DNA from: Synechococcus sp. RSCCF101
GTDB taxonomy: Bacteria > Cyanobacteriota > Cyanobacteriia > PCC-6307 > Cyanobiaceae
DNA: 64,000 bases
Assembly (NCBI RefSeq): GCF_008807075.1
Contig: NZ_CP035632.1
Coordinates: 868,001-932,000, forward strand
Reading direction: 5' to 3'
Shown here piece by piece: positions 16,026 to 19,113 of the stretch. The notes beneath the pieces were generated by a model, which did no database searches, was not told where the DNA came from, and saw only the letters and a list, made by a program, of their open reading frames with translations. Each line of letters starts with the position of its first letter. The stretch's first letter is position 1. A program made the translations under genes and the position numbers.

Positions 16026-17093
16026 TCACGCCTCGCTCAGGGGCCGGCGCGCTGACCAGACCCGTGTCATGAAGTGGGACTCGGCCTCGATGTCGGTGAA
16101 CCCGGCCTGGGCCAGTCGGGCGGGGATGTCGTCGCGGACGTAATCGTTGTAGAAGGGCTCGTGGAAGGCACGGGAGAAGTTCTCCAGGGCCGGCTGGAAG
16201 GCCGCGGCATCGGCCTGCTGAACCGAATCGGCCAGCACCAGGACACCGCCCGGTTCGAGAACCCGGAAGCACTCGGCGAGCACCTTCTGGCGCACCGGTC
16301 CGGGCAGCTCGTGCAGCAGGAACACGTTGGTGACGGCCTGCATGCTGCCTGAGGCGTAGGGCATGGCCTCGGCATTGCCCTCCAGCACCTGAGGCAGAGC
16401 GCCGGGCACCTCGCCCAGCCGCCGGCTGGCTTCGCGCAGGTAGGCGCGCGACAGATCGAGGCCGAGGAGCTGCGCCTCGGGGAAGGCCCCCATCAGCTGC
16501 CGGAGCGTGGCTCCGGTGCCGGTGGCCACATCGAGGATGCGGCAGGCCCCGGCGGGCCGGTCTGCGAAGGCCTCGAGGCCGCGCCGCACCGGAGCGATCA
16601 CCCGCCGGCGCATCGCGCCGGCCAGCCCGTTGAAGAGGATCTCGACCTGCAGGTCGTAGAGCCTGGCGGAGTGGTCGCTGAGGTAGCCGTCGGTCTGGTG
16701 GTGGAAGTTCTGCAGGTAGTAGGCCGGCAGCGACGCTCCCGCCGGACGAGCCGGGAGGTCACGCGTGTCACCGCGACGGCGGCGATCCCAGAAGGCCGGG
16801 ATGTCCAGACAGAGCAGGGGGTAGCGACTCAGCCAGGTGCCCCAGGGGTCATCGAACAGCAGTGACTCGGGGTACTGACCCGACTCCATGTCCTGCCAGT
16901 CGCGTCGGAGCAGCTCCCGCGAGGAGGCCTGAATCGCCTGGAGGGCTTCCATGGAGAGGGGCTGGGCCTCGGCAGCTCCCTCCGGAGCCATCAGGGTCAT
17001 CACCCGGCTGACCACGGTTTTGTGGGTGAGGCCGAGCACGCTCTTGCCGTCCTGCAGGAGCTGGTAGGCGAGATAAGGAAGGGTGGCGGGCAT
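16026..17093 (-). CDS. Class I SAM-dependent methyltransferase
   Basis: A 355-residue protein from ATG at 17093 (alternative ATG at 17117). The first half is a helical domain (PYLAYQLLQDGKSVLGLTHK onward) found in a cyanobacterial group. The second half is a Rossmann methyltransferase: motif I ILDVATGTGATLRQL, the acidic strand end LLGLDLS, AMPYASGSMQAVTNVFLLHEL, and RVLEPGGVLVLADS. The motif set is of the UbiE/COQ5 type that methylates small molecules; the substrate is unknown. Upstream lies the region with the double palindrome. Confidence 0.82.
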   Translation of the reverse strand: MPATLPYLAYQLLQDGKSVLGLTHKTVVSRVMTLMAPEGAAEAQPLSMEALQAIQASSRELLRRDWQDMESGQYPESLLFDDPWGTWLSRYPLLCLDIPAFWDRRRRGDTRDLPARPAGASLPAYYLQNFHHQTDGYLSDHSARLYDLQVEILFNGLAGAMRRRVIAPVRRGLEAFADRPAGACRILDVATGTGATLRQLMGAFPEAQLLGLDLSRAYLREASRRLGEVPGALPQVLEGNAEAMPYASGSMQAVTNVFLLHELPGPVRQKVLAECFRVLEPGGVLVLADSVQQADAAAFQPALENFSRAFHEPFYNDYVRDDIPARLAQAGFTDIEAESHFMTRVWSARRPLSEA

Positions 17094-17192
17094 GCCCCGT
17101 TGCGGCTTTGGGGCCATTTCAGCGAATGGGAACCGGAGAGCGTGAGGGGCACCGGGCCCGTGTCCCCGCTGGCCAATCACAAATGATTGCCA

Positions 17193-17219
17193 CAGTTCAG
17201 AACTGGTAGCCGTTGCTAC
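17193..17219. promoter_or_regulatory. Two adjacent palindromes, the second matching the NtcA box GTA-N8-TAC
   Basis: CAGTTC-A-GAACTG (17193-17205) is a perfect 6+1+6 inverted repeat. Directly after it, GTAGC-N4-GCTAC (17206-17219) is a perfect inverted repeat that matches the NtcA consensus exactly. No TAN3T hexamer is found 22-23 bases further on, so a standard NtcA-activated promoter for the gene at 17279 is not supported; repression or a divergent role is possible. Confidence 0.5.
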
Positions 17220-17247
17220 AGAATGAACACAGGAAAAGAGCTCCCTG

Positions 17248-17263
17248 CCTGCCGAACGGCGGG
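17248..17263 (+). promoter_or_regulatory. Small hairpin ahead of the ribosome site of the 107-residue gene
   Basis: CCTGCC and GGCGGG flank a GAAC loop (one G-U pair). It ends a few bases before GGAGG, the Shine-Dalgarno sequence of the gene at 17279. Confidence 0.3.
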
Positions 17264-17278
17264 AGTCCGGAGGCTGCC

Positions 17279-17602
17279 ATGACCACGATCACAACCCCGC
17301 GCCAGGCCGTCACGCCGCTGGTGAAGCCGGTGGAGAGCTCCAGAGTTCTCCACTACGACAGGGGGATCGCCAAGAGTCGTCGTCATGCGGCCCGGGAATT
17401 CCTCACCTGGGCTGAGGAGCACGGCCGGGAGACGCGGCTGCACGATGCCGGTCTGGCCCAGATCACGACCCACCCCGACCTGATGGAGGAGCAGAACGCA
17501 ATTGCCCAGACCAGGGCCTGGGCGAAGCGGAGGACCCGGACGAACAGGCTCCACCGCAGTGCGCTGACCCATCTCAGAGCTCAGCGCAGCGCGGTGGTCT
17601 GA
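17279..17602 (+). CDS. Small basic protein convergent with glnA
   Basis: A 107-residue protein with a very basic C-terminal half (AWAKRRTRTNRLHRSALTHL). The central helix region reads YDRGIAKSRRHAAREFLTWA. The start is ATG at 17279, preceded at normal distance by GGAGG; an in-frame ATG 66 bases upstream is less likely because it would overlap the palindrome region. Its stop is four bases from the glnA stop on the other strand. The size, charge and NtcA-type box recall glutamine synthetase inactivating factors, but I see no clear sequence match to IF7/IF17. Function unknown. Confidence 0.6.
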   Translation: MTTITTPRQAVTPLVKPVESSRVLHYDRGIAKSRRHAAREFLTWAEEHGRETRLHDAGLAQITTHPDLMEEQNAIAQTRAWAKRRTRTNRLHRSALTHLRAQRSAVV

Positions 17603-17605
17603 GGA

Positions 17606-19024
17606 TCAGGCGTCGTAGTACATCGTGAACTCGTGCGGGTGGGGCCGCTGGCGCAGTTGCTGCACCTCCTCGTATTTGAGGTCGATCCAGTTGCTGATGA
17701 AATCCTCGCTGAACACGCCGCCTTCCATCAGATAGTGCTTGTCGGCGTCGAGAGCCTCCAGCGCCCCATTGAGTGAGGCTGGCACCGTGGAGATCTTCGC
17801 CAGTTCCTCGGCCGGAAGCTCGAACAGATCCACATCAGTTCCGTCACCGGGATCGATCTGATTCTTCACACCATCGATGCCGGCCATCATCATGGCGCTG
17901 AAGGCCAGATAGGGGTTGGCCAGGGCATCACCGGAGCGGAACTCAAGCCGCTTGGCCTTGGGATTCGGGCCGGTGAGGGGAATGCGAACGGCAGCGGAGC
18001 GGTTGCCCTGGGAATACACCAGATTCACCGGTGCTTCGAACCCTGGGACCAGTCGCTTGTAGCTGTTGGTGGTGGGATTGGTGAAGGCAAGGAAGGAGGG
18101 GGCGTGGCGCAGCAGGCCGCCGATGTACCAGCGTGCCGTCTGCGACAGGTTGGCGTACGTTCCCTCGCCGAAGAAGAGTGGCTGGCCCGCTTTCCAGAGA
18201 CTCTGGTGCACGTGCATGCCGGTGCCGTTGTCGGCGAACACGGGCTTGGGCATGAACGTGGCGGTCTTGCCGTACTTCTTGGCAATGTTGCGAACAACGT
18301 ATTTGTAGATCATCACGTTGTCCGCAGCGCCGATGAGCTGGGCGAACTTCATGCCGAGCTCGTGCTGGGCGCTGGCCACTTCGTGATGGTGCTTCTCGAT
18401 GGGAACCCCCAGGGATCCCATGGTGAGGAGCATGTCACTGCGCATGTCCTGCACGGTGTCATTGGGAGAGACCGGGAAATAGCCCTCCTTCAGCTGAATC
18501 TTGTTGGCCAGATTGCCGCCCTCCTCCATGCGACCGGTGTTCCAGGGCGACTCGATCGAATCGACGCTGTAGGAGCTGCTGCCGTAGCCCGACTCATAGC
18601 GAACGTCGTCGAAGACGAAGAACTCCGGCTCCGGGCCGAAGAAGGCCGTATCGGCGATTCCGGTCTTCTCCAGATAGGAGAGGGCCTTGGCCGCCAGGGA
18701 ACGCGGACAGCGGCCGTAGGGATCACCGGTGCGTGGATCGCTGATGGAACAGATCAGGCTGAGGGTCTTGTGGCTGTAGAAGGGATCGATCCAGGCCGTG
18801 CTGGGGTCGGGCACCATCGCCATGTCCGACTCATTGATCGCTTTCCAACCCCGGATGGAGGAGCCGTCGAAGGCCACCCCCTCGCTGAAGGCCGCCTCAT
18901 CGAGCAGGTCGGTGCACACCGTCAGGTGCTGCCACTTGCCATGGAGATCGGTGAACTTGAGATCGATCAGTTCAATCCCCTCATCCTTGATGGTGCGGAG
19001 AACGTCCTGGGGGCTGGAAGCCAT
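17606..19024 (-). CDS. glnA: Glutamine synthetase type I
   Basis: GlnA makes glutamine from glutamate, ammonium and ATP, the main entry of ammonium in cyanobacteria. The 472-residue protein has [11 protein letters not shown] (about 48-58), the active-site [12 protein letters not shown] (about 124-135), the ammonium/ATP region [14 protein letters not shown] (about 209-222), [20 protein letters not shown] (about 252-271) and NRSAAVRIP (about 331-339). The start [16 protein letters not shown] (ATG 19024) is typical; the open frame continues upstream through the promoter. An NtcA-type promoter precedes it. Confidence 0.97.
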
Positions 19025-19070: not shown

Positions 19071-19113
19071 ACCGTAGTGATGGCCCCTGAGGAGCTTTTG
19101 TATCCGCAGTGAC
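19071..19113 (-). promoter_or_regulatory. NtcA-type glnA promoter
   Basis: Read on the minus strand, GTC-N8-TAC (19113-19100; one mismatch to GTA-N8-TAC) is followed 23 bases later by TACGGT (19076-19071), a TAN3T -10 box. That is the spacing of class II NtcA-activated promoters. The leader to the ATG would be roughly 40 bases. Confidence 0.7.

Follow-up and report, generated by a model that had tools for sequence, protein, structure and literature searches.

In Synechocystis and Anabaena, glutamine synthetase (GS) is the target of the small inactivating factors (IFs) IF7 and IF17, which share three conserved arginines and whose genes, gifA and gifB, are repressed from NtcA boxes centered at -30.5 and -7.5, respectively (PMC6316151). 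A further small protein, PirA, acts on PII, and the NtcA box of its gene is centered at -33.5 (PMC8092223). A section of a 2018 review carries the heading 'The Regulation of GS in Marine Picocyanobacteria is Unclear' (PMC6316151), and later work stated that the IFs as well as PirA are absent from marine picocyanobacteria (PMC8092223). Here we analyze a stretch of 64,000 nucleotides (nt) from the genome of Synechococcus sp. RSCCF101 (contig NZ_CP035632.1, positions 868,001 to 932,000; hereafter, the window), in which a gene encoding a small protein (P0001, 107 amino acids; open reading frame (ORF) at 17279-17602, plus strand) faces glnA and, as described in the original prediction, is preceded by two adjacent perfect palindromes (17193-17205 and 17206-17219). 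Comparison of the corresponding loci suggests that this gene is a candidate NtcA-repressed regulator of GS.

Our comparison set comprised 94 loci encoding homologues of P0001, whose upstream regions, 89 of them distinct, were anchored; the chance level for the box was obtained from first-order shuffles, and the sequences immediately 3' of these genes served as a control. The second palindrome, GTAGCCGTTGCTAC (GTAGC-CGTT-GCTAC; 17206-17219, plus strand), conforms to GTA-N8-TAC, and perfect matches to this pattern were found upstream of 76 of the 94 homologous loci, corresponding to 73 of the 89 distinct regions, against a mean of 0.54 (maximum 3) expected by shuffling and a single match in the 89 control stretches. 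Given this conservation, the palindrome is almost certainly an NtcA site, as had been proposed. In the anchored alignment, the majority sequence of the box with its flank is GTAGCAACCGCTAC-AGAAT-G, AGAAT being the most conserved sequence after the box; ANAAT directly follows the box in 52 of the 89 regions, an arrangement that never appeared in the shuffles. Past AGAAT, conservation falls until a CA located about 11 bases after the box. The predicted -10 hexamer is CAGAAT (17219-17224, plus strand), which overlaps the last base of the NtcA box, and the A of the conserved CA (17231, plus strand) is, judging from the column conservation, the putative transcription start. The only other GTA-N8-TAC-ANAAT of the genome is GTACTTGTTCGTACAGAAT, at G000:C1:36167-36185.

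In this arrangement, the NtcA box would lie inside the core promoter, between -35 and -10 and with its center at about -18.5, which is a predicted repressor position: NtcA bound there should block the RNA polymerase, and the position is comparable with those of the gifA, gifB and pirA boxes, which supports repression. NtcA very probably represses the small gene, which should be on only when nitrogen is plentiful. The original prediction had considered repression on the grounds that the -10 box expected for NtcA activation is missing. The canonical activation layout, with TAN3T some 22-23 nt after GTA-N8-TAC, is indeed neither present here nor conserved among the orthologues; what had been overlooked is the -10-like CAGAAT abutting the box, which supplies a positive reason for predicting repression, and the activation -10 is seemingly missing because the promoter looks built for repression. 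None of the Rfam families searched, including the glutamine riboswitch, matched upstream of the small gene.

The glnA promoter has the opposite design. Its NtcA-like box, GTCACTGCGGATAC (19100-19113, minus strand), has one mismatch and is followed after 23 nt by the -10 sequence TACGGT (19071-19076, minus strand), which fits TAN3T; the same layout was found in three relatives (L036-L038) and, by its spacing, is an activating one, opposite to that predicted for the small gene.

The source genome, a single contig of 2.98 Mb, belongs to the family Cyanobiaceae, which also contains Prochlorococcus and marine Synechococcus. The small gene, with a Shine-Dalgarno-like GGAGG (17269-17273, plus strand) 5 bases 5' of its ATG, is convergent with the ORF of glnA, encoding the type I GS (GSI; 17606-19024, minus strand), and its stop lies 3 bases short of the glnA end. 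On the other side, across an intergenic region of 185 base pairs (bp), it is divergent from a minus-strand gene for an S-adenosylmethionine-dependent methyltransferase (16026-17093; Pfam Methyltransf_25, 3e-18), the start of which was placed at a conserved Met. Orthologues of glnA are convergent neighbors of the small gene in 63 of the 94 loci, and the methyltransferase is its divergent neighbor in 79; in some genomes (e.g., G071, G155 and G024), the small gene and glnA are kilobases or more apart.

P0001, with which we define a so far unnamed Cyanobiaceae family, has a computed isoelectric point (pI) of 11.5 and a charge of about +8. Among close orthologues, the ratio of nonsynonymous to synonymous substitution rates is 0.05-0.14 (seven in-register pairs of the 11 made; the 4 out-of-register pairs were ignored), which indicates a real protein under purifying selection. 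The conserved domain (residues 35-101; 17381-17581, plus strand), delineated from alignments A1 and A4 and the AlphaFold helices, consists of two related helical stretches, approximately FLAWA..H...R...A.LAQI..HPD and Q.AWA.R.......LHDSA.AQLR, and ends with the motif (LHDSA)xAxLR; two homologues (L037 and L038) have three repeat units instead of two. The small protein is probably two-helix: AlphaFold placed two long helices at residues 28-64 and 68-106, with block predicted local distance difference test values of 64-82 from residue 31, and with a predicted template modeling score of only 0.38 and an input of five sequences the model is a secondary-structure hint at most. No Pfam or NCBIfam model, DUF4278 (PF14105) included, matched P0001 or any of 28 members, no solved structure matched the family in a sequence search, and no carrier of the family was found among viral contigs and phage records. 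The family is an undescribed one that would join the NtcA-repressed small regulators, in a clade reported to lack the known ones.

In a survey of 271 Cyanobiaceae genomes, each at least 90% complete, the small gene was detected in 71 genomes from 11 of the 34 genera, a broader profile yielding the same number, and in a larger set it was present in 102 of 400 genomes of the family; none of 140 genomes from elsewhere in the phylum carried it. Absence of the protein from all related genomes, which the original prediction had named as evidence against itself, is thus not what we found. A GlnA-type GS is encoded by all 71 carriers, and the 32 genomes in which a full GlnA match is missing all lack the small gene (Fisher 5e-5); in genus g6, it was found in 8 of the 18 GlnA-positive genomes versus 0 of the 15 others (p 0.004). 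These p-values are weakened by shared ancestry and linkage. A full-length GlnA-type GS match was missing from many near-complete Cyanobiaceae genomes, including g6 members G089, G216, G197, G174 and G256, as well as G037, G076, G107, G048, G142, G204 and others, so that GSI loss looks common; RS9917 is reportedly the single published case.

The IF7 family was detected by profile search in 55 of 146 genomes of the phylum, and none of 151 Cyanobiaceae genomes yielded a convincing match; the one candidate, with an E-value of 0.007 and located inside a 416-residue frame, was taken as chance. Profile-profile comparison by hhalign of the small-protein family (alignment A1) with 16 IF7 sequences (alignment A2) gave a probability of 0.05% and one aligned column, in agreement with the earlier statement that P0001 lacks a recognizable IF sequence. 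R8, R21 and R28, which we take to be the position numbers of the essential arginines, are invariant in A2; the invariant columns of A1 include no arginine, and there is no alignable counterpart. A sequence search of solved structures with IF7 returned chance-level matches only. Judging from these comparisons, the P0001 family falls outside the IF7/IF17 family. In a non-picocyanobacterial genome, several tandem ORFs with the first ~38 residues of IF7 were noticed (G526:C6:1876020-1877044), possibly representing an IF7-like array.

We propose that, when nitrogen is short, 2-oxoglutarate-loaded NtcA would occupy 17206-17219, against the -10, and block transcription of the small gene while simultaneously activating glnA from the upstream box of the latter. 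When nitrogen is plentiful, NtcA would release the box and the small protein would be made, most likely to bind GlnA and lower its activity, the job performed elsewhere by IF7 and IF17. The support in silico comes from the conserved NtcA-type site against a -10, the evidence for a real protein and the restriction to GlnA-positive genomes. An IF-like role, as envisaged originally, stays the leading hypothesis because the small gene usually lies beside glnA, occurs in GlnA-positive genomes only and belongs to a clade without IF7/IF17. In our estimation, a role of the small protein in nitrogen control is probable, whereas the chances that GlnA is its target are about even, and the complete scheme, an NtcA-repressed small regulator restraining GlnA, appears evenly poised between right and wrong. 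Synechococcus WH7803 has more GS activity upon nitrogen starvation or on nitrate than on ammonium (PMC4923085), a pattern in keeping with a brake of this kind and likewise explained by regulation of glnA alone.

Several observations weigh against this scheme. Only 4 of the 6 bases of CAGAAT agree with the -10 consensus. Many GlnA-positive genomes do without the small gene, including all of the small Prochlorococcus-like genomes sampled, and linkage to glnA alone could explain the joint loss of both genes. Furthermore, the description of the protein as very basic holds for P0001 and for most members preceded by a box (58 of 73 with a pI >8; median domain charge near +2) but fails for the boxless homologues, 13 of 18 of which are acidic (charge -4 to -12). 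Basic charge is therefore no family-wide trait, and the acidic boxless members located beside glnA do not fit one simple electrostatic mechanism throughout the family. The acidic boxless homologues, some beside glnA and some elsewhere, include L010, L011, L021, L022, L024, L037, L038, L114, L118, L133 and L157. NtcA-controlled effectors may be confined to the boxed, mostly basic members; alternatively, salinity or another pressure may have shifted the charge. The tree, poorly resolved and based on 80 columns, requires about five switches between the boxed and boxless states.

Other readings of the promoter were weighed against the same data. The box could activate the small gene or the divergent methyltransferase in the usual NtcA manner, given that GTA-N8-TAC is the canonical activator site and that CRP-family activators are also able to work from other positions; this is quite improbable, with no TAN3T in place and a conserved -10 directly against the box. 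Moreover, judging from its distribution, the box follows the small gene rather than the methyltransferase: it is kept at loci where no methyltransferase was found next to the small gene (L135, L136, L138, L139 and L142), as well as where glnA does not adjoin it (L115-L117, L147 and L148), and is missing where the methyltransferase alone is present. None of 20 GlnA-positive genomes lacking the small gene, most with a methyltransferase-glnA pair, had the box followed by AGAAT; the stretches compared contained two further GTA-N8-TAC matches, neither between such a pair. Where a full glnA match is missing from the genome, one of 10 methyltransferase loci contained a lone GTA-N8-TAC without AGAAT and the others none. 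The original prediction also raised the possibility that the first palindrome, CAGTTCAGAACTG (CAGTTC-A-GAACTG; 17193-17205), is the operator of a second regulator acting together with NtcA. This perfect palindrome abuts the NtcA box with zero gap, and the genome contains no match to the reversed pattern. However, it was found in none of the orthologues, a sample of other genera with no close relative of the same genus; the whole genome holds one perfect copy and two with one mismatch, where several are expected from base counting; and the 185-bp region contains 2 inverted repeats with 6-bp arms versus 0.67 expected, a number reached by 17% of the shuffles. The first palindrome is thus neither conserved nor beyond chance, lies over the expected -35 position and is probably no operator, so that joint action with a second regulator bound to it is very improbable. 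An inverted repeat overlooked in the original prediction, CAATCA-CAAA-TGATTG (17174-17189), lies as far upstream of the NtcA box as lineage-specific conserved elements do in the orthologues, which would make it a more promising location for a hypothetical second regulator.

The remaining alternatives concern the target. An NtcA-repressed small protein could act on another partner, such as PII, PipX, NtcA itself, an ammonium transporter or arginine synthesis, with PirA as the known precedent (PMC8092223), and the position beside glnA would then reflect history or shared regulation rather than GlnA binding. The promoter evidence speaks equally for this possibility and for GlnA as the target, and the distance between the two genes in G071, G155 and G024 favors it; with the convergence on glnA at 63 loci and the absence of the gene from all genomes without GlnA-type GS on the other side, we regard it as a main but unlikely alternative. 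It is rather improbable that a DUF4278 protein controlled by a glutamine riboswitch is the nitrogen-excess GS brake of this clade and that the small protein is secondary. DUF4278 genes have been put forward as candidates (PMC6316151), and the source genome has one (L187, G000:C1:400000-402000, minus strand, ~1010-740) that is preceded by both a Glutamine-II riboswitch (38.6 bits; cut-off 33) and a perfect box, GTAGCAACCGCTAC, a double nitrogen switch. Yet a GS-brake role of DUF4278 is equally only proposed, the two candidates are not exclusive, Synechocystis having two IFs, and the part of IF17 that DUF4278 matches is the N-terminus, a region not required for inhibition (PMC6316151). A second DUF4278 gene (L188, G000:C1:2823500-2825500, minus strand, 1287-132) lies upstream of glnB and has a glnA-type glutamine riboswitch that scores below threshold (30 bits; cut-off 35); between this gene and glnB, a perfect GTAGCAACGGCTAC precedes a 91-residue ORF.

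For the picocyanobacterial clade, which carries much of aquatic nitrogen assimilation, a defined gene family that can be tested in culturable members is now available, with a conserved predicted NtcA-repressor promoter. The small gene is a good candidate for the brake on ammonium assimilation that is missing from the picture in small freshwater and marine cyanobacteria. With the picocyanobacterial DUF4278 genes that have glutamine riboswitches (e.g., PMM1846), it shares the clade, the upstream NtcA box, the high expression expected under nitrogen sufficiency and the standing of a candidate GS regulator, but belongs to a different protein family and has no detected riboswitch upstream. PirA, compared here by description rather than by sequence, is likewise a small protein (51 amino acids) with an NtcA-repressed promoter, as predicted for the small gene, and is high under nitrogen excess (PMC8092223). 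Unlike IF7 and IF17, the small protein is found in another clade, is encoded next to glnA, has homologues that are not all basic and shows no sequence relation to these factors. Like them, it is small and, in P0001, basic, its NtcA box overlaps the core promoter in silico with wiring opposite to that of glnA, and it is expected under nitrogen sufficiency. That picocyanobacteria possess a GS inactivating factor of their own, unrelated to IF7/IF17 and under the same logic of NtcA repression, is a tentative reading, to which we give somewhat less than an even chance; if true, cyanobacteria arrived at this regulatory solution twice.
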